25,110 nt of DNA from a virus, in IMG/VR virus record IMGVR_UViG_3300021376_004228, positions 1 to 25,110 of that record, one strand, 5' to 3'. Shown in pieces: positions 5,774-17,801 of the stretch. The translations under genes and the position numbers were made by a program. How positions within the stretch are numbered: position 1 is the first letter of the stretch; the number at the start of each line of letters is the position of its first letter. Below the pieces are notes generated by a model. The model was not told the origin of the DNA and did not search any database. It worked only from the letters and a program-made list of their open reading frames with translations.

Positions 5774-6168
5774 TGTCTATTGTCAACCTAATATTGATTA
5801 ACGGAAATGAAATTACTGAACACAATAGAACATTTGATTCTACTGAACTTTTGTCTGTAAACGACATAGACCTAGCAAGTGGTCATAAAAGAAGGTTTTA
5901 TAAGGATAATAAAAAAGAATTTAATTTCTCTTGGTCTTACCTACCCAGCCTCCAAGTAAAAACTGTTGATAATCGTAAAGGGCAGATTTATTTAGAAACT
6001 TTGGGTAATATTCGTGGAACTGTAACGGTTGCTATACAGACTGTTCCTAATGGCTCATATGATGAGTATACATGCTATGTTGATTCTTATTCTAAAACTT
6101 TAATTAGAAGAGATTTTTCAACACAATGCAGTTATTACGATGTCTCTTTAACTTTGGTTGAGGCTTAA
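5773..6168 (+). CDS. Minor tail protein, short paralogue
   Basis: This 131-residue protein starts at an ATG sharing a base with the tape-measure stop, so it is probably translationally coupled. It aligns along its full length with the C-terminal 140 residues of the next protein: shared landmarks are I-T-x-HNR, a YK or YYK pair, SWxYLP, TVDNR, Y-x-x-TLxRRD and a final S-x-TL-x-E. There is no signal peptide or membrane segment. Its place just after the tape measure suggests a distal tail or tail-tip component, but no family was recognised with certainty. Structure prediction against distal tail proteins would settle it. Confidence 0.6.
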   Translation: MSIVNLILINGNEITEHNRTFDSTELLSVNDIDLASGHKRRFYKDNKKEFNFSWSYLPSLQVKTVDNRKGQIYLETLGNIRGTVTVAIQTVPNGSYDEYTCYVDSYSKTLIRRDFSTQCSYYDVSLTLVEA

Positions 6169-6169
6169 T

Positions 6170-7261
6170 ATGACAAATTTTAGTCGCTTTAGCATAACAG
6201 AGCCTTTAAGTAGCGGTTATGATTTTTATACCGCAGATGCTGCAATAGCCATAAGCGCCTCTCTTTCAGCATCGCTTACCTTAACAGCTCAAGCAATAGA
6301 AATTTTGCACGCGCAATCAGAAATGTCCGGTGCTTCTGAATTGTCTGCAAATGCAGAAAAAATTGCATATGCAGAAGTTTCAATTCAAAACATTTTATCA
6401 ACATCTCTAACAGCGGTATTTGAAAGACAAGATGTTTCAACTTCTATTTCTGCAAATCTTAGCATTTCTGTAGACATGAAAAAAATTGCGTTTGGTCAAC
6501 TGGATGGTGCCGTGGGGGGATCGGGGGCATCACTGGAAGTTTCAATGCTTAAAGAAGCTCATGCCCAATCAAGCATTAGTGGGCATGTAGATGTTGCTGA
6601 TTCTCAAATAATAAAAACTGCAAAAGCAAATTCGGCACTAAGTGGCGCTTTGAGTGTTGCGACGGTTTTGCAAAGGGTGTCTTTGATTTCGTCGTCAATG
6701 TCTGCCCATGTTGATTTGTCTGTTCTTGGCAAGATAGTACTCATTACTATTCGCACCAGTTTGATAAACAATTTAACTGTAACGCCAAGAATTATTAAAT
6801 ATCGCCCATCCGTTGGCGGGGTTGAAATACTTGATACGCAGCAGATCAGAACTTTGCTTTCAATAGATAATAAGGTTATAACAAATCATAACAGAATCAT
6901 TGAATCCTCTATTGAGCCAATTTATATCGAGAACACTAATGTTAAAAACACTAGAAGTCGTTATTATAAATCAACTACAAGAGCCAGTAGGAATGTCTTT
7001 GTGCTTTCATGGCAATACCTTCCGAATAGTAAAGAACAAACGGTTGATAACAGGTTGGCTAGGGACTATATTGTGTCAATAGCCAGAGATCCCGATTACC
7101 ATGTGCTTAAAATTACCAATATGGATTCATCAGGGGTGACGCCTGATACTCAAACAAGTTATAATGTATTGGTGACAAATTATAACGAAACTCTGGTTAG
7201 AAGGGATATTAGCTCCAATACTTACTATTGGGATTGCTCAATTACTCTGAGCGAGGTCTAA
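6170..7261 (+). CDS. Repeat-containing minor tail protein
   Basis: I place the start at the ATG at 6170, one base after the upstream stop; an in-frame TTG at 6158 lies inside the previous gene. The product has 363 residues. Residues about 24-210 are roughly nine degenerate copies of a 20-23-residue unit rich in Ser, Ala and Gly with alternating hydrophobic positions. Residues about 220-363 are a copy of the domain that makes up the whole preceding protein. It is thus a repeat stalk fused to a tail domain. It probably belongs to the tail tip or side fibre, judging from position and architecture; the function is unproven. Its stop overlaps the next ATG by one base. Confidence 0.6.
   Translation: MTNFSRFSITEPLSSGYDFYTADAAIAISASLSASLTLTAQAIEILHAQSEMSGASELSANAEKIAYAEVSIQNILSTSLTAVFERQDVSTSISANLSISVDMKKIAFGQLDGAVGGSGASLEVSMLKEAHAQSSISGHVDVADSQIIKTAKANSALSGALSVATVLQRVSLISSSMSAHVDLSVLGKIVLITIRTSLINNLTVTPRIIKYRPSVGGVEILDTQQIRTLLSIDNKVITNHNRIIESSIEPIYIENTNVKNTRSRYYKSTTRASRNVFVLSWQYLPNSKEQTVDNRLARDYIVSIARDPDYHVLKITNMDSSGVTPDTQTSYNVLVTNYNETLVRRDISSNTYYWDCSITLSEV
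6241..6800 (+). repeat. About nine degenerate 20-23-residue Ser/Ala repeats
   Basis: Successive protein units begin near ISASLSASL, SEMSGASEL, VSIQNILSTSL, TSISANLSI, GAVGGSGASL, SSISGHVDV, NSALSGALSV, SSSMSAHVDL and IRTSLINNL. Most are followed by about ten residues ending in an Ala or Ile pair. The pattern of a Ser/Gly turn followed by alternating small and hydrophobic residues suggests beta-strand repeats. The DNA copies have diverged too far to look like repeats at base level. Confidence 0.6.
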
Positions 7262-10200
7262 TGCTAACTTACGGACTTTACAATAAACCAATATCTAATA
7301 CTTTTGTAGATAAAATTTCTGCTATTTCCCAAAAAATAAAACCAATGGTTATTGTTCATTGGCTTGATAGTCGCCATATTGATAAGGTTGACGCTAATAC
7401 CGAAATAGCATCAAGCAATGCTACTTATGTTATACCTACGAATAATGATATAACTAATGAAGCCTACGGAATGCTGTCAGAATCAAGATCATTATCTGAT
7501 AATGAAATATTGTTTAATAAATTAAAAAGGGCAGATTTTTATTTTACACCAAATGAATCAATTAACGGAATTGAAAGAGAATCGTTTCCGTGGGCTGTTG
7601 CTGGGGCTAAAGATGTTAACGGAAATATAATTACCGCAAATGGCAATTGGCACTGTTTACCTACATCGAGCAGTTCTAAAACAAATGTTTTGGACTTAGA
7701 TGATAATTTTGAATTTGGATACTGGTCATCTTATAAAAGTACCAGCAATTTACACGCTACCAGAAACGGCTACGAGTTTTCAACACCTGTTGTATTAACA
7801 TATCTATTTACAGCTAGGCCGGTAAATTTAATTAAAATCATTACATCGGAACATTATGGACAAATTAAATCTTACAATGTAAAAGCCTATGTGAACACAT
7901 CAACATTAGTTTTTGATCAAGATGGGGAGATAGCTGAAGATAATTATTACTTTACACATTACCTTCAAGGCATTTCTAACAGTGCTATCAATAAAATATT
8001 AGTAACTATATATACCACCAAAAACCCATTAGATAACGCCAGGGTTCAAGAGGTGTGCCCTATCTATGAAGTAGATATGACTGATTATGTAATTGATGTA
8101 AATGTTTCCAAAGTAAGAGATGTGCATGAAACAAGCCTTCCAATTGCTGGCGGGGGATCATCAACGGCATCTATTAGTTTTAATAATAATAATAAAGATT
8201 TTAATATATTTAGTTCAAATTCTTTGTTTGGAAAATATATGAAAAAAGATTTAAAGTTTTTTATATATGGCGGTTGGCAAATTCAAAAAACAGATGATTA
8301 TGAGATATCAACTTTTTTAACAACTTCTATTAATGCCAACTCTAATACAATTCCTGTTGGAACAACAATTGGGTTTCCAGACGGGGGTGGGGATAATAAT
8401 TTTATATTAACAATTGATAAAAATACTATTAATAGAGAATATGTTCTTTGCTCCAAAAATTCTCCATTTTTGTTTAATGCTGTTGAAAGAGGCTATGGTG
8501 ATTCAATAGCCAGAAGCCATAATGCTAACGCAACTGTGCATTTTGACACTTTTGAATATGTCCCTTATGGTGTTTTTTATATAGATGAATGGCAAGCCGC
8601 TTCTTCATCAATGGTTGTTAGTGCTTCATTGACGAATTGGAGCAAATTTTTAAATGAAAAAACTTTTACTAAAGGTTTTTTTATTCAAGATTCTACAATA
8701 TCTTTAGCAACTAAAAATATTTTAATGAATTCAAATTTTCCAGAAAAAGATATATTTTATTTATCAAAACCATCAGAATCTTATACAAGAAATAATGCTA
8801 TTTTGCATTATAATTTTAATGAAAATATTGTTGATAGAGACAATGCAACAAGAACAATATCTAGTTCATTAAGGGCAAGATTTGTTGAGGTTACATCTAA
8901 TGATTTAGTTGGGCTTAAAGATATTCTTCTTGATGCCAACGATAAAGATTTAACTGTTATGGAAAAAGCTTTGGATATTAAAGCCTATTTTACCCCATCA
9001 TTAACAACTACATCAAGTGCTATATCAACACAAAACCAGGCTTATTCGGTCGCCTTAAATTTCACTGCCGGTACTTTTACAAAACATGCCGGCGGTGCTG
9101 TTACGCAGTTTTATAACGGTGTTTTTGATGGGTTCTATATTCCCGATATATCTGGGAATCAAAGTTTAATGATTTTAATAAATCGGGGTGGTGTTCGCGT
9201 TTATTTGGACAAAGTATTGATTATCAACGACTGGTACTCGGTTGAGTCCGGCACTAATTCACCAGTGACTCTGGAATCCGCTAATTATAATTTAACTGCT
9301 GGCAAAATGTATGAATTAAGAATTGAATTTTTTACTGGTGCTCTTAAAACAGGAGCGCCCTTTCAAATTCAATTAAAACGAAATGATAGCAGCGGTATTG
9401 ATTGGGTTTATTCTGATCAAACAATAACAATGGCCGCCTTGGACAGAATTGGCAGCAAATCAAACCAATCGTATCTTTCTTTTAATTCTGGCACTGGTCA
9501 ATGGTCCGTTGTCCCCAACCAGAATCAAATAGAAAGAGCTTCTAGGAGAAATAATGCAATATATGTGGGAAACCCCACCCTGGCTCAACCAGGAGGGGTC
9601 GTTTCCGATACAGACAACAAGAGTTTGCTTCTGTCATCAAATTCTTATTTAAGAATACCTTACGACATATCTTATAATATTTTTGAAAGCAATTCTCACA
9701 CATATACTGGTGATTTTACAATTTCTACATATGTTAAGTTTAATGCAAATTCTTTCTCTGGTAATGGTGAGTTTATTAGTAACTGGAATAACTCCACCCC
9801 AAATTCTGGGTTTGAATTATTTTACAATTCCTCAATGCACGGAATAAAAATAATAACATCATCGGGGACTGAAGTAATTTCATCTAATACAGCGCTTTCA
9901 AACTCTTCCTTCTCGTTAATGTCTTTTGCATTAAAAGGCAATATTTTAAAATATTATGTAAATGGTGTGCTGTCAAATACGATTACCCTGTCGGGCACTC
10001 CAATTTCTTATATCAACAAAGACCTTTGTATTGGTGGTCGTGGCGCTTCTTACGCTTCTGGTGCAGAAGTAGCCCCAGCCACAATTCGTGAATTTACAAT
10101 TGATGAGTTTGTTATATTTAATAACGCATTAAGTGATGAACAAAATTTAAATAATTATATTGAAACTCAAATCCAACCATCGGATGTATTCCCGTTTATA

Positions 10201-11301
10201 TATGGGAACGATACTACTGCTCAAAGCATAATTGATAGCATAAGTCTCGCTGATCTTGGTCGGCTGTATATAGATGAAAATGAAAAAGCCAGATATGAGC
10301 ACTATTATCGTCTTTTTGAAACAACAATAGATCAACACGCCAATGTTCAACAAATTTTTTCAGATACAATAAATATTATTGATGCTAGTTATAATGTTCA
10401 GTTGCAAACAAACAAGGTTGTTGTAAAAGTATCAGGCATAACTAATAATTTAATTTCCAAACAGTCTTTGTGGAGGGCTGAAGATCCCACTTCTTTGGGG
10501 ACTGTAAATCTCGTATCCAATATTACTAATACATCCAATACATTGCCAGTAAGTACTACGGATAAACCCCCATTCCCCAAATCGGGCTATCTTAAAATAG
10601 ATAATGAAATTATAAAATATAGTAATACAACAAGCAACGCTTTTTTGTTGGCAGAAAGAGCACAATTCGGCACAGCTGCTGCGGCTCATTCTAACAGTGC
10701 TCTTGTGCGAGAAGTTCTTAGTTTTGATATTAAGTTTGATAAATCGCCTGCATTTCGAGTGCAAAATCCGTTTATAACTAATTTGGTTGAACCATTACCA
10801 CCATTAATAGAGCTTATTAAATTTGAACCCAATCATTATGGGGCAAAATTAATTATTGCGGCTTCTAATGCAACAACTTCTGGTTCGTTAGTTTATGTTG
10901 AAGGAGAAGATGTTGCCAGCAATACTAAGGCTTTTGCGTCAATTGCGGGCATCCCGGTTGTTGTTACTGAAGCTAAAGGTGAAGTAGTTGAGAAAGTTGC
11001 AAAGCTTGACGATAATATTAGAAAATATGGTCTTAAAGAATTAGTTATAGAAAATGAATTTATTTCTAATTTAGAAAAAGCACAAAAAATAGCAAATTTT
11101 ATTATTAGCAAAATGAGTGAACCAGTTCCGGTTATAAATTTAAATATATTGCCTAATCCAAGAATTCAACTTGGAGATCGAATAAAAATATCTTCAATGG
11201 ATTCTTTTGATATAATTAATGGAGAATATTGGGTTATCAGCACAGATTGTGTGTTTTCCGATAGCCCATCGCAAAGCATTGTTGCAAGGAAGGTTGTTTA
11301 A
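7261..11301 (+). CDS. Large tail hub/tip protein with PA14-like and LamG-like segments
   Basis: The start is the ATG at 7261, overlapping the previous stop by one base; the in-frame upstream TTG at 7228 is inside the previous gene. The product has 1346 residues. The N-terminal third and the last 100 residues look like a tail-hub scaffold, ending in a beta-rich part with QLGDRIKI and GEYWVIS. Residues about 593-723 resemble a PA14 domain (GGVRVYLDKVLI, then AGKMYELRIEFF). Residues about 780-963 resemble a LamG/concanavalin-like fold (FTISTYVKF, YYVNGVLSN, FTIDEFVIFN, ALSDEQ). A short phage module with an ID-x-E or ID-x-N core and an E-R-x-x-G...H ending occurs twice, at about 354-428 and 1084-1155. 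The inserted domains fit host glycan binding. Family assignment is by pattern only. Confidence 0.65.
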   Translation: MLTYGLYNKPISNTFVDKISAISQKIKPMVIVHWLDSRHIDKVDANTEIASSNATYVIPTNNDITNEAYGMLSESRSLSDNEILFNKLKRADFYFTPNESINGIERESFPWAVAGAKDVNGNIITANGNWHCLPTSSSSKTNVLDLDDNFEFGYWSSYKSTSNLHATRNGYEFSTPVVLTYLFTARPVNLIKIITSEHYGQIKSYNVKAYVNTSTLVFDQDGEIAEDNYYFTHYLQGISNSAINKILVTIYTTKNPLDNARVQEVCPIYEVDMTDYVIDVNVSKVRDVHETSLPIAGGGSSTASISFNNNNKDFNIFSSNSLFGKYMKKDLKFFIYGGWQIQKTDDYEISTFLTTSINANSNTIPVGTTIGFPDGGGDNNFILTIDKNTINREYVLCSKNSPFLFNAVERGYGDSIARSHNANATVHFDTFEYVPYGVFYIDEWQAASSSMVVSASLTNWSKFLNEKTFTKGFFIQDSTISLATKNILMNSNFPEKDIFYLSKPSESYTRNNAILHYNFNENIVDRDNATRTISSSLRARFVEVTSNDLVGLKDILLDANDKDLTVMEKALDIKAYFTPSLTTTSSAISTQNQAYSVALNFTAGTFTKHAGGAVTQFYNGVFDGFYIPDISGNQSLMILINRGGVRVYLDKVLIINDWYSVESGTNSPVTLESANYNLTAGKMYELRIEFFTGALKTGAPFQIQLKRNDSSGIDWVYSDQTITMAALDRIGSKSNQSYLSFNSGTGQWSVVPNQNQIERASRRNNAIYVGNPTLAQPGGVVSDTDNKSLLLSSNSYLRIPYDISYNIFESNSHTYTGDFTISTYVKFNANSFSGNGEFISNWNNSTPNSGFELFYNSSMHGIKIITSSGTEVISSNTALSNSSFSLMSFALKGNILKYYVNGVLSNTITLSGTPISYINKDLCIGGRGASYASGAEVAPATIREFTIDEFVIFNNALSDEQNLNNYIETQIQPSDVFPFIYGNDTTAQSIIDSISLADLGRLYIDENEKARYEHYYRLFETTIDQHANVQQIFSDTINIIDASYNVQLQTNKVVVKVSGITNNLISKQSLWRAEDPTSLGTVNLVSNITNTSNTLPVSTTDKPPFPKSGYLKIDNEIIKYSNTTSNAFLLAERAQFGTAAAAHSNSALVREVLSFDIKFDKSPAFRVQNPFITNLVEPLPPLIELIKFEPNHYGAKLIIAASNATTSGSLVYVEGEDVASNTKAFASIAGIPVVVTEAKGEVVEKVAKLDDNIRKYGLKELVIENEFISNLEKAQKIANFIISKMSEPVPVINLNILPNPRIQLGDRIKISSMDSFDIINGEYWVISTDCVFSDSPSQSIVARKVV

Positions 11302-12719
11302 TGACAAGGGTACGAGGCTCCAGCGGTATATCCGAGAGCTCAATTGTATTTTACAACGGCGGTCATAACCATGATGGCATATCTTCCGCTCTTATAGACA
11401 CAGATGAATACTCCCTTTATGACTGGACAGTGGGTTTTGTTGGGGCGGGCTCTAGGCTGATTCGTCAGCAAGCAAATTTTGATGCTTTAAAAAATGTAAT
11501 TGCGAGTGTTGTTACCGAAACCGTACTTGGACCCACCGGTATTCGTCTGGCTCCAAACAGTTTACATGCTATTAGTATTGTTTCAAACACTATAACGGCA
11601 GATCAATTGGCAGCCAATATTGTTTTAGTTAATAACATAATAAGAAGTAATAATTACGTTGCCAATACTTCTGGGTGGGCTATTCATGGTAACGGTTTTG
11701 CTGAATTTGATATTGCTGTAATTAGGGGAACAATTGTTGCTAATTCAATTTCTATAAATGCCTACAATTTTTGGAATTCTAATGGGACATTTTCGGTTGG
11801 TGCTCCTGATAATCTTATGGTTTATGACGGCACAAATTTGGCATTAACAGGAACGGTTACTGCAACAGCTGGGCAGATTGCTGGATGGACAATTTCTGGA
11901 GATAGCCTTGTCACTGGTGGTAATTTTTCTGGCGATATGGTGCTTGGTGAATTTCCGGAAAGTGATGGTTATGCCGGAATGCAAGTTAGAGGTGAGGCTC
12001 AGGCAGGAACTTCACTTGTAGGCGAGGTTGTTGCTACTGGTGGTGAGGAAGGTGAAGCTTTTGTTCGGGTTGCCCTAGTAGACGCAAGCAACAATCAGCC
12101 TACACAAAATAAAACTAAGTTAATTTCACGCGGGGTTGTATATCAGTACCACAGCGAGCAGCAATGGGAATTTTTTAAAGATGACAACAATGTTTTGTTT
12201 GCAATTGTAGATGGTATTTCTTACTGCCTAATGCAGTGCAATACTAGTTTAAGCACCAATGCAACTACAACTACTACTAGTTCTGGCGCTACCACCACTA
12301 CTACCACCACTACTACCACTACCGCAGGTCCGTGCCTCACCCCGCCAGGAAATGGCTGGACAGCTTCTGGTGGTGTTGAAAATAGAGCTTGGGACTATCC
12401 AGGCGCCCCTCCTTGTGATAATTCAAATTGTGTGCAACAATGGCAACTTTATACCAAAGCAGGCTGTGGAAATTACGATTTGTTTCTGGGCTGTTCTTGC
12501 CCTCCCCCCGGCCAGGGCGGTGGCGGTGGTGGTGGTGGCGGCGGTGGAGGCGGTGGGGGCGATACAACTACGACCACTACGACTACTACGACTACTACGA
12601 CCACCCCGGCTCCAGGGTTCAACGGCAGAATTTGCAGCCCTGGTAATCTTGGTTTCTATGGTTGCAATAACCCCGGTCAGTGCGCTAATCCGCCTGGTGC
12701 CTTGAACTGCACGATATGA
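11301..12719 (+). CDS. Tail fibre-like protein with Thr/Gly linkers and Cys-rich tip
   Basis: The 472-residue protein starts on the base shared with the previous stop. The N-terminus has GHNHDG and a YDWTVGF stretch like tail proteins of actinophages. The middle (about 100-215) has repeated short strands, including TATAGQIAGWTISGDSL, which resembles the fibre-like part of tail-tip proteins. From about residue 307 it changes: two Cys in CLMQC, a Thr5-SSGA-Thr11 linker, a Cys-rich block, Gly15, Asp, Thr14, then a last Cys-rich block ending NCTI, with 12 Cys in all. This resembles small disulfide or metal-stabilised binding modules on extended linkers. It is likely exposed at the tail tip and involved in host contact (inference). 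Thr residues are plausible O-glycosylation sites for the transferase encoded 700 bases downstream. Confidence 0.65.
   Translation: MTRVRGSSGISESSIVFYNGGHNHDGISSALIDTDEYSLYDWTVGFVGAGSRLIRQQANFDALKNVIASVVTETVLGPTGIRLAPNSLHAISIVSNTITADQLAANIVLVNNIIRSNNYVANTSGWAIHGNGFAEFDIAVIRGTIVANSISINAYNFWNSNGTFSVGAPDNLMVYDGTNLALTGTVTATAGQIAGWTISGDSLVTGGNFSGDMVLGEFPESDGYAGMQVRGEAQAGTSLVGEVVATGGEEGEAFVRVALVDASNNQPTQNKTKLISRGVVYQYHSEQQWEFFKDDNNVLFAIVDGISYCLMQCNTSLSTNATTTTTSSGATTTTTTTTTTTAGPCLTPPGNGWTASGGVENRAWDYPGAPPCDNSNCVQQWQLYTKAGCGNYDLFLGCSCPPPGQGGGGGGGGGGGGGGGDTTTTTTTTTTTTTTPAPGFNGRICSPGNLGFYGCNNPGQCANPPGALNCTI
12264..12323 (+). repeat. ACN trinucleotide tract encoding Thr5-SSGA-Thr11
   Basis: Near-perfect ACC/ACT/ACA triplets encode a Thr run of five, a four-residue SSGA break, and a Thr run of eleven. 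It forms the first linker of the fibre tip. Mixed third bases mean pure slippage is limited, but triplet changes would keep the frame. Confidence 0.85.
12516..12560 (+). repeat. GGN trinucleotide tract encoding Gly15
   Basis: Fifteen consecutive Gly codons, mostly GGT and GGC, stand out from the AT-rich surroundings. They form a flexible linker between the second Cys-rich block and the second Thr run. Confidence 0.9.
12564..12605 (+). repeat. ACN trinucleotide tract encoding Thr14
   Basis: Fourteen consecutive Thr codons, mainly alternating ACG, ACT and ACC, follow the Gly run after one Asp. Codon choice differs from the first Thr run (ACG is common here, absent there), so the two tracts probably did not arise by copying one another recently. 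Confidence 0.9.
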
Positions 12720-12746
12720 TGATAATATAAATAGGAGAAACAAATT

Positions 12747-13184
12747 ATGATTTTAAAAACAGCAGATATTTTGTATTCACCACAGCGAGATGGTTCATAT
12801 GATGGCATTTCTGGTCCCCCAGTTGCTCATGCAGTTACTCCAATTGCATTTGTGATAGATAATGAGGTGGTATTTGCTCAAGGATTTTCCCCTTCTATTG
12901 GGGATAATATTTTTCTCGCTAACCCAACATACACATCTAGAATTGAATCTATTGATGGTGTGGAAACAGAAATTGTCATAGCAAATGTAAATGGCGCTAT
13001 TACAGAAATGATTGTTGATGATTTGTTTACAGCAGTACTTTTAAGTGCTCCGCTTGCAGTTTTGATTGAAAAACATTCACTAGTAAACACTGGATGGAGT
13101 CATGATGAAAACGGATTTTTTATAATGCAATTAATAGATGGTGTTCAAAAAAGAATTGATAGCATGGGAAATGTTGTCGCATGA
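12747..13184 (+). CDS. Hypothetical protein in the tail region
   Basis: This 145-residue protein is preceded by a clear ribosome-binding site (AGGAG at 12733-12737). It is mostly beta-strand-like, with no Cys, membrane segment or signal peptide. The middle has short alternating hydrophobic strands around SRIESIDGVETEIVI. It ends with a stretch resembling the end of fibre-type proteins (HDENGFFIMQLIDG). I do not recognise the family. Lying between a fibre and a glycosyltransferase, it may be a fibre accessory or a small virion protein. Its stop overlaps the next start as ATGA. Confidence 0.55.
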   Translation: MILKTADILYSPQRDGSYDGISGPPVAHAVTPIAFVIDNEVVFAQGFSPSIGDNIFLANPTYTSRIESIDGVETEIVIANVNGAITEMIVDDLFTAVLLSAPLAVLIEKHSLVNTGWSHDENGFFIMQLIDGVQKRIDSMGNVVA

Positions 13185-13417
13185 GTGTTAAATCACGATG
13201 GGAGCAGTATAAAGAAAAAATTGGGGATGTCAGACCCTGGGATATATTGGATCCCCATAAACATGTTAAATCGGAGGAAATCAGCGATGCAAGATACAAA
13301 ATATGTCTTGAGTGCCCAGAGTTAATTGATTTAACAAAACAATGTAAACAGTGTGGTTGTTTTATGCCTTTAAAAACTAAATTAGAGGCTGCGTTTTGCC
13401 CATTAAAAAAATGGTAA
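13181..13417 (+). CDS. Small zinc-ribbon-like protein
   Basis: The 78-residue protein overlaps the previous gene by four bases. It has Cys at 42, 45, 55, 58, 60 and 73 in the pattern C-x2-C, C-x2-C-x-C, then CPL-x-KW at the very end. Phage proteins of this type, with a conserved QCKQCGCFM core and a CPLxKW tail, occur widely in environmental phages, but I know no proven role. The Cys pairs strongly suggest zinc binding. It lies directly before the glycosyltransferase. Confidence 0.65.
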   Translation: MSVKSRWEQYKEKIGDVRPWDILDPHKHVKSEEISDARYKICLECPELIDLTKQCKQCGCFMPLKTKLEAAFCPLKKW

Positions 13418-13426
13418 TTTTGATCA

Positions 13427-14356
13427 ATGTCATCAATTTTTATTCAAATTCCATCGTATAGGGATTTTGAATTAAATAAAACCATTGCTAGTGCCGTAAA
13501 TAACGCAAGCGGTGAAAATAAATTACATTTTGGCATTCATCAATGTTTATTTTTTGATTCTGAAATTGTAATAAATAAATTTTATCCTGATTGGGTAACA
13601 ATGGATTGTGCCAATAGCATTGCTCCAAATAATATTGGTTTACAAAAATCAAGATATATAGCTAATGAATTTTATAATAATGAAGATTATTATTTTCAAA
13701 TTGATGCACATATGAGATTTGTAAAAAATTGGGATTTAAAAGCAATTAAAATGATAAATAATTTTATTAATTTTGGAATTAAAAAACCTTTAATGACCGC
13801 ATATCCGTGTTCGTATTGGTATGCAGATGACGGTGTATCTGAAATAGAATCAGATTATTATACAACAAGAATTTTATTTGTCCAAAATACACAACAATTT
13901 ACAAAAACATTAATACCCCTCAATACAGCCTATCCCGTAGATGCATATTGTGCTTATACATATAGCGTATCCGGGGGGTGTATTTTTACATTTGGTTCTT
14001 TTGCGCAGATAAAGCCAAATCAAAAAATTGCATTTTGGGGCGAAGAACCACTGATAGCAGCAAGAGCTTTTACTCACGGCTTTGATTTAGTTGTCCCCCC
14101 AGAAAAATTAGTTTCTCACCTGTATGCCGGGGGACAAAGGGTTAAGATGATAAGAAGATATCATGTGTGGGAAGATTTTTCTTCAATCTGGGATCAAATG
14201 GAGGCCGTTTCAAAAATAGAATATAAATCAATTTTTACAGAAAGAAGAATTGGCGATGATGCATTGGGCGCTGTAAGAACCCTAGAGGAGTATGAGCAAT
14301 TTGCTGGATTGGATTTTAGAACGGGTCAGATACATCAATCTAAATGGGCAGAATAG
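13427..14356 (+). CDS. GlcNAc-transferase-type glycosyltransferase (GT60/PF11397-like)
   Basis: The 309-residue protein opens with IFIQIPSYRDFELNKTI, the family hallmark strand with S-Y-R-D and a following Thr-Ile. It has YFQIDAHMRF around residues 90-98, where D93-A-H95 corresponds to the D-x-H/D-x-D nucleotide-sugar metal site. Later it has a GGCIFTFG loop and FWGEEPLIAARAF at about 204-216, with the acidic pair expected for acceptor or catalytic positions. The family includes the Dictyostelium Skp1 transferase, which puts GlcNAc on hydroxyproline, and many bacterial and phage members of unknown target. The length is complete and no membrane anchor is visible, so it should act in the host cytosol. 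The nearby Thr-rich fibre protein is the obvious candidate acceptor (inference). Confidence 0.75.
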   Translation: MSSIFIQIPSYRDFELNKTIASAVNNASGENKLHFGIHQCLFFDSEIVINKFYPDWVTMDCANSIAPNNIGLQKSRYIANEFYNNEDYYFQIDAHMRFVKNWDLKAIKMINNFINFGIKKPLMTAYPCSYWYADDGVSEIESDYYTTRILFVQNTQQFTKTLIPLNTAYPVDAYCAYTYSVSGGCIFTFGSFAQIKPNQKIAFWGEEPLIAARAFTHGFDLVVPPEKLVSHLYAGGQRVKMIRRYHVWEDFSSIWDQMEAVSKIEYKSIFTERRIGDDALGAVRTLEEYEQFAGLDFRTGQIHQSKWAE

Positions 14357-14368
14357 TTTAAAATAAGG

Positions 14369-14374
14369 TATAAT
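14369..14374 (+). promoter_or_regulatory. Possible -10 box (TATAAT)
   Basis: A perfect TATAAT lies in the 70-base gap before the gene at 14427, one of the few gaps here long enough for a promoter. No convincing TTGACA-like -35 stands 16-18 bases upstream, and AT-rich DNA yields such hexamers by chance. A good ribosome-binding site (GAGG at about 14412) follows. Treat it as a candidate. Confidence 0.35.
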
Positions 14375-14426
14375 GGTGGAGATAAGATATAGCACGTGGT
14401 GGAAAATAAAAAAGAGGAAATAACAT

Positions 14427-15086
14427 ATGGCTTACGAAAATTATTCTTTTGTGTCTTGGTCTGATGGCACCCCTATAACCGGAGAAAGGCTTGCCCAAAT
14501 GTCTATGAATATGGAGCAAATTAGGGATGCTAACGATAGAAAACCTAACGGTATTATTCAATTGATTCAGTCAACAACTGCCCCGGCTGTTGCCAATGTT
14601 ACTACAACAAATTCATTAGTTATTCAGTTAACAAATCCTGGCGGTGGAACTGATCAAAGAATTTCAATTCCAGCAGATCGGTATTTTCGTGTTACATGCG
14701 TATTCCCTGGATTTGAAATTGCGGCTAAAGGTGCCGAGGATGCAATATTAAGTTTAAAACTATTTCAAGTAGCATCTGGATTTGATGCGGCAAGTCCATT
14801 AATGCAATGGGATATGGCTTTGCCCCCGCATATATTTTATGATGTTAACAGTAATGCAAACATTACGGCTAGTCAACAAAGTTATAAAAGTCAGCCAACG
14901 ACTGTTGGTGCTGGGGTTTATTCTATTGTGGCTCAAAGCGGGGGCGGGCTTTCTCAGCAATCTTTTTCTGTTGTTGTTAAAAGAACTTTTGTTTCTGGGG
15001 CAACAAATGCACCGCAAATTAGTGTTGGTCCAACCCCTGCTAAAAAATTACAATTATATGTTGAGGACATTGGCTCTGGTTCATAA
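14427..15086 (+). CDS. Probable minor virion/tail protein
   Basis: The 219-residue protein starts after an AGAGG ribosome-binding site. The N-terminus (YENYSFVSWSDGTPITGERLAQM, here given in two parts: YENYSFVSWSDG and TPITGERLAQM) and the C-terminal LYVEDIG resemble small minor tail or decoration proteins that lie near fibre genes in actinophages. The middle is beta-rich. There are no Cys-rich parts or membrane helices apart from a single Cys in RVTCVFPGF. Exact family and place in the virion are unknown. It is the last probable structural gene of the module. Confidence 0.5.
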   Translation: MAYENYSFVSWSDGTPITGERLAQMSMNMEQIRDANDRKPNGIIQLIQSTTAPAVANVTTTNSLVIQLTNPGGGTDQRISIPADRYFRVTCVFPGFEIAAKGAEDAILSLKLFQVASGFDAASPLMQWDMALPPHIFYDVNSNANITASQQSYKSQPTTVGAGVYSIVAQSGGGLSQQSFSVVVKRTFVSGATNAPQISVGPTPAKKLQLYVEDIGSGS

Positions 15087-15526
15087 TGACAAGAAGAATT
15101 TTAGCATCTAAAAGGGAAGATGTTAATTGGGCATTAAGGTCTATTTCTGGAGAAAATAATCCAAATTACGGGGGTGGCAAATATGTTGATGACAAAGGAT
15201 ATGTTCGCATTTTAGATCAAGAACACCCGTTTAATATTAAAGGTTATGTCTACGAGCATAGAGCCGTGCTTGAAAAATATTTAGGAAGGCATGTTCAGCC
15301 ATGGGAAACGGTGCATCATATAAATGAAATTAAAAGCGACAATCGCTTGAACAATCTTTTTTTATGCACCCATTCGGAACATAGTGCGCTTCATAGGGAG
15401 GGCAGGAAACCGACTGCTGAGCATAGAGAAAAAATGCGACAAAGTATGAAAAAACGCAATAAACAGATAAGAGATAATTTGAAAGAAAAAAATAAAAATT
15501 TTCAAAATAAAGAGGATTTGCCCTAA
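15086..15526 (+). CDS. HNH homing-type endonuclease
   Basis: The 146-residue protein starts on the base shared with the previous stop. It carries the HNH_3 pattern: YVYEHRAVLEKYLGR at 54-68, then VHHIN at 76-80, a DNRLNNL element at 85-91 and a closing SEHSALH. H77, H78 and N86 are in the expected catalytic and metal positions. The ENNPNYG motif near residue 25 and the GRKPTAEHREKM stretch near 106 resemble NUMOD3 DNA-binding motifs of homing endonucleases. No intron boundary is apparent, so it is a free-standing nuclease. It sits at the junction between tail and transition genes, a typical niche for mobile HNH genes. Confidence 0.8.
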   Translation: MTRRILASKREDVNWALRSISGENNPNYGGGKYVDDKGYVRILDQEHPFNIKGYVYEHRAVLEKYLGRHVQPWETVHHINEIKSDNRLNNLFLCTHSEHSALHREGRKPTAEHREKMRQSMKKRNKQIRDNLKEKNKNFQNKEDLP

Positions 15527-17301: not shown

Positions 17302-17511
17302 ATGGCTAAACCAAATGAAAGCACCGTTGAAGTATGGGCTTCAATCGGTATTACCAAAAATCTAGGTAATTACGAATCGCTGCGTCTTGATGCTGGAGCA
17401 AAAATTACTTGCTTGGCAATTGAAGACGAAGATGCATGGAAAAAATTATGGCAATCTGTTGATGCTCAAATTGAAGCAAAATTGCAAGAACTTGATGCCG
17501 AAAAGCAATAA
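17302..17511 (+). CDS. Conserved-looking small hypothetical protein
   Basis: The 69-residue protein has a strong GAGGAG ribosome-binding site overlapping the end of the previous gene. It starts with a short beta-rich part (VEVWASIGIT, NLGNYESLRLDAGA) and ends in an acidic helix (VDAQIEAKLQELDAEKQ). The first part looks like a module I associate with phage genomes but cannot name. No catalytic motif is visible. Its stop overlaps the WhiB start by one base. Confidence 0.55.
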   Translation: MAKPNESTVEVWASIGITKNLGNYESLRLDAGAKITCLAIEDEDAWKKLWQSVDAQIEAKLQELDAEKQ

Positions 17512-17801
17512 TGAAAAAAAATTGGAGAGACAAGGCTCTCTGCTCAAACGATAAAAATAACAAAAAATGGTTTTCATATAATATTGATGATATTCAATAT
17601 GCCAAATCTGTGTGTAAAAAATGCACAGTAAGGCTAGAATGTATTACCAATGCTTTATCTGATGGGTTTTATGGAGTTAATGCCGGTATCTCTGAATACG
17701 ATTATAAACTTATAACTTGGAAAGAAGCAGGTAGCGAAGATGAATCTAACTGGTCAAGATCTAATAAAACACTTCAAAGAGTGTTGCGAGAAGCGAAATA
17801 A
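17511..17801 (+). CDS. WhiB-like iron-sulfur transcription factor
   Basis: The 96-residue protein has C11, then C35-x2-C38-x5-C44, the four Cys that ligate a [4Fe-4S] cluster in WhiB proteins. Trp5 and the first Cys lie in the expected N-terminal context (WRDKALC). The usual GVWGG turn is GVNAG here (55-59), followed by a SEYDYK stretch in place of SERER. WhiB proteins bind the primary sigma factor and alter transcription in Actinobacteria; phage versions can interfere with host WhiB functions. This is the strongest clue to the host phylum. Its 3' end overlaps the next gene by 62 bases. Confidence 0.8.
   Translation: MKKNWRDKALCSNDKNNKKWFSYNIDDIQYAKSVCKKCTVRLECITNALSDGFYGVNAGISEYDYKLITWKEAGSEDESNWSRSNKTLQRVLREAK

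Follow-up and report, generated by a model that had tools for sequence, protein, structure and literature searches.

The tail fibre gene in the window (the whole 25,110-nucleotide stretch of the IMG/VR virus record IMGVR_UViG_3300021376_004228 that was analysed) is followed by a predicted GT60-type, mucin-like O-glycosyltransferase, which probably modifies the T5, T11 and T14 linkers of the fibre and would represent one variant of an exchangeable slot in which linkers are finished. Gene order, enzyme family and predicted fold, together with a match between linker and enzyme across lineages, point to this reading, for which the probability is estimated at about three in four. The features involved are listed in Table 1.

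Table 1. Features of the fibre and enzyme-slot region, in window coordinates.
Feature	Position	Strand	Basis or remark
Tail fibre or tail-tip protein, proposed substrate (472 aa)	11301..12719	+	ORF call; weak PF09327 match; homologues in loci L004 and L097
T5 linker run	12264..12278	+	fibre residues 322-326
T11 linker run	12291..12323	+	fibre residues 331-341
G15 linker run	12516..12560	+	fibre residues 406-420
T14 linker run	12564..12605	+	fibre residues 422-435
Small conserved gene (145 aa)	12747..13184	+	between fibre and DUF6171; omitted from the initial annotation
DUF6171 zinc-ribbon protein (78 aa), conserved anchor before the enzyme slot	13181..13417	+	PF19668, phrog_13558
PF11397/GT60-type polypeptide glycosyltransferase (309 aa), occupies the enzyme slot	13427..14356	+	PF11397, PHROG 24687, motifs, AlphaFold model
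Next ORF (219 aa, probably structural), right slot border	14427..15086	+	relatives follow the transferase in L003/L004

The fibre ORF lies downstream of a minor-tail-protein gene (7261-11301; phrog_10359, 1.3e-20), and its own match to the tail-tip fibre family PF09327 is weak (0.0028, below the cut-off). Its C-terminal part is a chain of Cys-rich modules with Thr and Gly linkers between them. The initial annotation had counted 30 Thr residues in the linker runs, which is exactly the sum of T5, T11 and T14. In 2000 shuffles of the fibre protein the longest run never exceeded 6 residues. Each run is spelled with two to four synonymous codons and is thus not one repeated codon. These mixed codons are left unexplained if replication slippage maintains the Thr and Pro runs as neutral spacers of low complexity and the transferase gene is an accessory one with no relation to them, an explanation that draws on the frequency of low-complexity regions in phage proteomes (PMC6821194) and of poly-Thr ORFs without GT60 in viral contigs. 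It also fails to account for an enzyme match that is far beyond chance and survives the redundancy and relatedness controls described below, and it is already disfavoured as very improbable.

The transferase starts 708 bases after the fibre stop codon, in agreement with the approximately 700 bases first noted. Most of the protein is covered by the PF11397 GlcNAc profile (E 3.5e-33, 116 bits; cut-off 21), and PHROG 24687, "glycosyltransferase", matches at 4.6e-34. The motifs from which a polypeptide-modifying family had initially been proposed are present, namely S-Y-R-D near the N terminus, D93-A-H95 and W204-G-E-E207, and residues D93, H95 and E207 are invariant in a comparison of 45 relatives. 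An AlphaFold model (pLDDT 94.9) was compared with known structures. Polypeptide GalNAc-transferases fill the first 29 places among the Protein Data Bank entries (Z 18.6-22.3 over 248-270 residues), the next best entry follows at Z 16.6, and Foldseek also points to the ppGalNAc-transferases. The enzyme therefore combines the family profile, the conserved D-x-H site and, in the model, the GT-A type polypeptide-transferase fold of a GT60 member. The nearest bacterial GT60 proteins, from genome contigs, share about 30% identity with it and are spread across many phyla, so that no host can be called from them. The window phage is a freshwater phage.

Between the fibre and the transferase lie two conserved genes. 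Relatives of the 145-residue protein immediately precede DUF6171 in 50 loci; it had no match in Pfam, PHROG or NCBIfam. The DUF6171 protein itself matches PF19668 above the cut-off (E 2e-6, 28.5 bits; cut-off 27) and phrog_13558 at 8.5e-17. This zinc ribbon had been suggested as a partner of the transferase, but DUF6171 also precedes oxygenases and empty slots, and 70 phage records match it as against only 3 that match the transferase. A transferase-specific partnership was consequently rejected, and DUF6171 is regarded as the constant part of the locus. The position behind it in viral contigs serves as a slot that varies in its modifying enzymes.

To relate slot content to linker chemistry, 132 non-redundant loci of related phages were surveyed. 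Thr-rich linkers were accompanied by GT60 without an oxygenase in 21 of 25 loci and by another putative sugar enzyme in 3 of 25. Pro-rich linkers went with a prolyl-4-hydroxylase-like 2OG oxygenase in 63 of 79, sometimes plus GT60, and the slot was empty in 23 of the 28 loci with neither linker type. Both associations are significant in Fisher tests (3e-18 for 2OG with Pro, 3e-14 for GT60 with a Thr run) and stable across cut-offs. In 16 of the 20 non-redundant loci with a GT60 enzyme of the window clade directly behind DUF6171, the linker has a run of T5 or longer, as against 0 of 29 DUF6171 loci without an enzyme, and GT60 genes outside this slot had a Thr run nearby in 1 of 69 bacterial and 0 of 25 distant phage loci. 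The co-occurrence check proposed with the initial annotation thus did not find the transferase equally common without Thr linkers; the idea of a dedicated Thr-linker O-glycosylation passed it. Because most relatives combine Pro-rich linkers with prolyl-hydroxylase-like enzymes, the Thr/GT60 pairing belongs to a broader rule. The enzyme-to-linker match suggests that the tail fibres are chemically finished by the phages themselves.

The slot oxygenases resemble solved prolyl 4-hydroxylases in a profile comparison (1.2e-10) with HxD...H conserved, and a model of one reached a pLDDT of 91.6. They accompany many unrelated Pro motifs (PTPT, PVAP, PVVP, FPPF, PPPP, PPPI and PGPG). A PF13640 oxygenase together with a PF11397 transferase stands behind a Pro-rich fibre in, for example, L040, L047, L048 and L119. 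A literature search, with subscription journals mostly outside its reach, returned no paper tying phage hydroxyproline, tail fibre and oxygenase together.

Two held-out scans were performed with the rules frozen beforehand. The Pro/oxygenase rule held, with a 2OG enzyme in 14 of 19 and 17 of 20 Pro loci. Held-out data for the Thr rule are few: the scans gave one Thr locus (L431) and an independent poly-Thr scan gave one poly-Thr ORF followed by DUF6171 (L178), and both fit. Among nearest relatives with different cassettes, 35 of 54 pairs differed as predicted and 0 were reversed. Path-disjoint pairs on the weakly supported DUF6171 tree favoured GT60 with Thr by 9.9 to 0.0 (p 0.002) and 2OG with Pro by 13.2 to 0.0 (p 2e-4), and the GT60 tree holds just 5 independent oxygenase contrasts. 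The path-disjoint pairs bear on the explanation that the fibre C terminus, DUF6171 and the enzyme are swapped as a block, so that descent rather than chemistry links them and the enzyme's target may be a receptor or glycan of the host. Such hitchhiking would fit the clustering of labels on the GT60 tree (12 changes versus 21.5 shuffled) and an exchange at exactly this boundary in L003, L139 and L004. It does not predict that path-disjoint contrasts repeatedly show the match with zero reversals or that oxygenases go with so many unrelated Pro motifs, and prolyl hydroxylases have no obvious host-glycan role; it is considered quite unlikely.

The linker rule has exceptions. GT60 occurs with FPPFFPP in L022 and L133, L010 carries TTPPPG, and L003 combines a PGPEPG linker with GT60 as the sole slot enzyme. 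L003 is 99.3% identical to L139 as far as the DUF6171 end and 99.6% identical to L004 from the transferase start onwards, so that it is either a chimeric contig or the product of a recent recombination. Where the slot contains GT60 of a distant clade, the linkers are of the Pro type. A reverse scan of other viral contigs for the DNA pattern (ACN)10 yielded 120 loci, about 100 of them with poly-Thr ORFs, and only L178 had DUF6171 and GT60 behind the ORF. Thr runs can thus do without GT60, and the notion that poly-Thr generally implies GT60 in phage proteins was rejected. In a look for a cultured test phage, nine DUF6171 phage records (L167, L168 and L464-L470) showed no combination of a Pro/Thr fibre linker with a cassette, which agrees with the rule but yields no model system. 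In S-CAM7 a prolyl 4-hydroxylase adjoins collagen-like (GPP) tail proteins, and S-SCSM2R has a large oxygenase/transferase/radical-SAM island with no such linker nearby.

The transferase could instead target another virion protein, such as tail tube or capsid, as has been reported in mycobacteriophages, and owe its place near the fibre only to the accumulation of late morons downstream of tail genes. Capsid glycosylation by phage-encoded transferases is known, as cited in PMC11256854, and phage GT60 genes do occur elsewhere without any fibre (L063, L064 and L169). This leaves unexplained why slot content tracks the linker amino acid and why a T5 linker is missing from all 29 empty slots, and a different virion target is judged unlikely. 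If the fibre is the substrate, the transferase would add a single sugar, most likely an alpha-HexNAc drawn from the host UDP-GlcNAc pool, to many Thr hydroxyls of the T5, T11 and T14 linkers in the infected cell, either ahead of tail assembly or while it proceeds. Once glycosylated, the runs could serve as extended, protease-resistant spacers between the Cys-rich modules. In phages with Pro linkers the same slot holds a 2OG oxygenase, either by itself or, in the manner of the Skp1 pathway, together with GT60, and in phages without Thr or Pro linkers it is usually empty.

For tailed phages of fresh and coastal waters in general, the balance tips towards a slot behind the fibre with exchangeable enzymes that finish the fibre post-translationally and are matched to its linker. 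Poly-Thr would become mucin-like through GT60, poly-Pro would become (glycosylated) hydroxyproline stalks of a collagen, extensin or Skp1-like kind through prolyl hydroxylases, which GT60 and radical-SAM enzymes may accompany, and other linkers would be left alone. If true, phage virions too would have proteins finished in mucin-like and hydroxyproline-based ways, adsorption fibres would be tuned by a new route, and small soluble enzymes for Thr or hydroxyproline O-glycosylation in bacterial expression would become available. Viral genes for prolyl 4-hydroxylases and glycosyltransferases regularly appear in lists of "auxiliary metabolic genes" of unclear use, and the linker match offers a concrete candidate substrate in the phage's own tail fibre. 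The finishing slot would also account for the high frequency of prolyl 4-hydroxylase genes in aquatic viromes. According to a Baltic Sea survey (PMC9301287), viral P4HA is frequent and its use "remains cryptic". The enzyme type is the same as that of the slot oxygenases; the passage concerned classes it among auxiliary metabolic genes and mentions collagen-like tail fibres, but not a matched Pro-rich linker.

Among known systems, the GT27 GalNAc-transferases are the structures that the model resembles most (Z up to 22.3) and share D-x-H and W-G-x-E type motifs. They belong to another CAZy family, however: PF11397 is the sole Pfam match of the window enzyme, no GT27 sequence-level family match was found, and sequence and profile searches against Protein Data Bank chains gave no relevant match. 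The ricin-type C-terminal lectin domain is also absent from its 309 residues, of which 1-306 form the aligned catalytic region. Mycobacteriophages such as Che8 encode transferases that act on virion proteins, as is proposed for the window phage, but according to PMC11256854 their targets are capsid proteins, whereas here fibre linkers are indicated and the enzyme is matched to linker composition. CAZy family GT60 includes Skp1 Gnt1 and the Trypanosoma cruzi polypeptide alpha-GlcNAc-transferase (PMC6939170). Gnt1 acts on hydroxyproline, only once the hydroxylase PhyA has acted (PMC6939170), and the paired PF13640 oxygenase and PF11397 transferase of related phage loci resemble this Dictyostelium/Toxoplasma pathway. 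A prolyl hydroxylase gene accompanies GT60 in relatives such as L119, L040 and L047 but is absent from the 25-kb window, a genome fragment outside which a distant copy may lie, and the proposed phage substrate is a repetitive linker where Skp1 offers one Pro. The T. cruzi enzyme was assayed on KPPTTTTTTTTKPP, whose eight-Thr run resembles the fibre linkers, with alpha-GlcNAc-Thr as product (PMC3769586). It works in the eukaryotic secretory pathway on surface mucins, unlike the predicted phage enzyme, whose gene lies beside that of a tail fibre. The pairings of GT60 with Thr and of oxygenases with Pro thus mirror both known GT60 acceptors, Thr in the Trypanosoma mucins and, after prolyl hydroxylation, hydroxyproline in Skp1.

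In the 25,110-base virus record, replication genes come after a tail module, and every number in the initial annotation's description of a Thr-run fibre, a zinc ribbon and a transferase matched the window ORFs (see table). The 30 Thr residues found in runs in the fibre use mixed codons, and the run lengths are far above shuffled expectation. A small protein at 17511-17801 has, by eye, what we take to be a WhiB-like cysteine pattern; such a pattern would suggest an actinobacterial host.

Features of the window and of the loci compared with it (L-numbers)
Feature	Record	Position	Remark
Tape-measure-like ORF, minor tail proteins, fibre	window		tail module
Fibre ORF	window	11301-12719	C-terminal Cys-rich modules, low-complexity linkers between
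T5 linker	window	12264-12278	fibre ORF
T11 linker	window	12291-12323	fibre ORF
G15 linker	window	12516-12560	fibre ORF
T14 linker	window	12564-12605	fibre ORF
Small conserved gene	window	12747-13184	behind fibre
DUF6171 zinc ribbon	window	13181-13417	after small conserved gene
PF11397 glycosyltransferase	window	13427-14356	after DUF6171
DnaB-like helicase, primase, DNA polymerase III alpha	window		after tail module
Junction	L003	5889/6001	exactly at slot boundary
Epimerase and transferase-like genes	L101	8245-10142	
Tandem oxygenase run	L037	4021-7054	
Tandem oxygenase run	L042	4260-7296	
Tandem oxygenase run	L154	downstream of 3201	
Radical SAM/SPASM	L011, L014, L017, L018, L031, L036, L037, L040, L150		between DUF6171 and GT60

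The window transferase belongs to PF11397 (CAZy family GT60), the family of Skp1 Gnt1. A T. cruzi enzyme activity that initiates Thr-linked mucin O-glycosylation was assayed on KPPTTTTTTTTKPP (PMC3769586); together, these two activities define two known acceptor types for the family, Thr in runs and hydroxyproline. An AlphaFold model built from 45 relatives (pLDDT 94.9) was closest to mucin-type polypeptide GalNAc-transferases, which make up all 29 top PDB entries (Z 18.6-22.3; next group 16.6), and the transferase is thus predicted to have the fold of peptide-glycosylating enzymes. Residues D93, H95 and E207 are invariant in the alignment of relatives. Because PDB sequence searches with the transferase gave no relevant match, membership of GT27 was ruled out.

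Near relatives were collected with two queries, the window transferase and DUF6171 (PF19668). DUF6171 is a constant landmark in them, with a linker-bearing fibre upstream and a variable enzyme position, here called the slot, downstream. The slot holds GT60, 2-oxoglutarate (2OG)-Fe(II) oxygenases, radical SAM/SPASM proteins, an epimerase paired with a fucosyltransferase-like protein, DUF7164 or GT61 (the last in L140), or is empty. The oxygenases belong to PF13640, the prolyl 4-hydroxylase family, and a profile of 27 of them matched solved prolyl 4-hydroxylases at 1.2e-10 with the HxD...H site kept. Four to six 2OG or JmjC-like oxygenase genes can stand in tandem behind one Pro-rich fibre, which suggests several distinct hydroxylations. 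The radical SAM/SPASM proteins (PF04055 and PF13186), often located between DUF6171 and GT60, accompany Thr as well as Thr-Pro linkers and may be candidates for further fibre modification. Behind the Thr-rich fibres of L101, L106 and L112, GT60 gives way to a PF01370 sugar-nucleotide epimerase together with a transferase-like protein that has no Pfam match and is presumably fucosyltransferase-like by its motifs; this pair possibly places a different sugar on Thr.

Linkers were classed by script from low-complexity window composition upstream of DUF6171 and slots by homology, each blind to the other. Among 75 non-redundant discovery loci, an oxygenase was present with 29 of 37 Pro-rich linkers, GT60 without oxygenase with 20 of 24 Thr-rich linkers (three of the remainder having the epimerase/fucosyltransferase-like pair), and no enzyme in 11 of the 14 loci with neither linker. 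The class rules were then frozen, and fresh DUF6171 scans supplied two held-out sets. The first (29 loci) gave an oxygenase in 14/19 Pro loci and an empty slot in 9/10 with neither linker; the second (27 loci) gave an oxygenase in 17/20 Pro loci, GT60 only at its single Thr linker, and a mixed result for neither linker (3/6 empty). Pooling yielded 132 loci, with the Pro cut-off moved from 0.25 to 0.245, admitting two borderline PAVTPAVT linkers: oxygenase in 63/79 Pro, GT60 only in 21/25 Thr and an empty slot in 23/28 neither-linker loci. The pooled test was rerun at Pro cut-offs of 0.20, 0.25 and 0.33, and the association was stable at redundancy cut-offs of 90, 75 and 65% and at several class thresholds. 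The co-occurrence of transferase and Thr linkers in related phages, raised in the initial annotation, was borne out: a T5+ linker is found in 16 of 20 loci where a window-clade GT60 directly follows DUF6171, versus 0 of 29 DUF6171 loci without enzyme.

Exceptions exist on both sides. GT60 occurs without long Thr runs in L022/L133 (FPPFFPP), L010 (TTPPPG) and L035 (TTAATTAA), the last two linkers still being Thr-rich, and no enzyme follows the Pro linkers of L127, L164, L353, L385 and L392. L003 has GT60 only behind a PGPEPG linker. Through the DUF6171 stop it is 99.3% identical to L139 (PGPEPG linker, oxygenase), and from the transferase start through the downstream genes it agrees with L004 (Thr linker, GT60) at 99.6% identity; on these identities it would be either a natural slot exchange at a recombination hot spot or a chimeric contig from assembly. 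In L394 (7587-8550), a GT60 behind an FPPFFPP fibre is split over two reading frames, either a broken gene or a sequencing error.

Descent was weighed against chemistry with three controls. Among 54 pairs of nearest relatives by DUF6171 with differing cassettes, that is, slot contents, the linker differed as predicted in 35 and in reverse in none. Disjoint-path pairs on the DUF6171 tree, which is short and weakly supported, gave 13.2 same and 0.0 opposite of 28 for oxygenase versus Pro (p about 2e-4) and 9.9 same and 0.0 opposite of 18 for GT60-only versus Thr (p about 0.002); restriction to well-supported branches left too few pairs. The oxygenases accompany many unrelated Pro motifs (PTPT, PVAP, PVVP, FPPF, PPPP, PPPI, PGPG), a variety that points to chemistry rather than one inherited block. 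The GT60 tree offers too few oxygenase contrasts for comparison; its linker label needs 12 changes versus 21.5 when shuffled, indicating that subclades hold their acceptor type yet have switched several times.

The third control was GT60 genes elsewhere: a T5+ ORF was nearby in 1 of 69 bacterial loci and in none of the 25 loci from distant phages. About 100 poly-Thr ORFs found by DNA-pattern scan in other viral contigs almost never had an adjacent GT60. Judged from sequence, Thr runs appear to serve many virion proteins, with GT60 tied to them only in the fibre-DUF6171 setting. Poly-Thr of 8 to 60 residues is common in structural-looking proteins of very different phages (L170-L289), mostly without a nearby GT60.

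From the observed gene order, family, fold and recurrent linker-enzyme match, we infer the following. After translation, the transferase would draw on host UDP-sugar to glycosylate Thr hydroxyls in the linkers of the adjacent fibre, turning these linkers into mucin-like extended spacers; the prolyl hydroxylases of the relatives, alone or together with GT60, would play an analogous part on Pro linkers. Dense O-glycans would hold the Thr run extended and shield it against proteases; concealment from host defences may be a further effect. The zinc ribbon and the preceding small gene may aid fibre assembly or recruit enzymes to the fibre.

In the part of the literature covered, no earlier report of a phage match between fibre-linker composition and adjacent enzyme was found. 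The cultured cyanophage Synechococcus phage S-SCSM2R (L471) has a dense island at 5812-15323 in which 2OG oxygenases and several glycosyltransferases lie together with a radical SAM maturase and an amidinotransferase, with no linker protein nearby. Cultured Synechococcus phage S-CAM7 (L474, 1266-8516) has a very large collagen-like protein (GPP/GPT repeat) encoded close to a gene annotated as a putative prolyl 4-hydroxylase, and might serve for laboratory study of fibre hydroxylation. Glycosylated virions are known in mycobacteriophages (cited in PMC11256854) and viral prolyl hydroxylases are already known (PMC9301287). Virion glycosylation, viral prolyl hydroxylases and GT60 biochemistry are each known, but separately.
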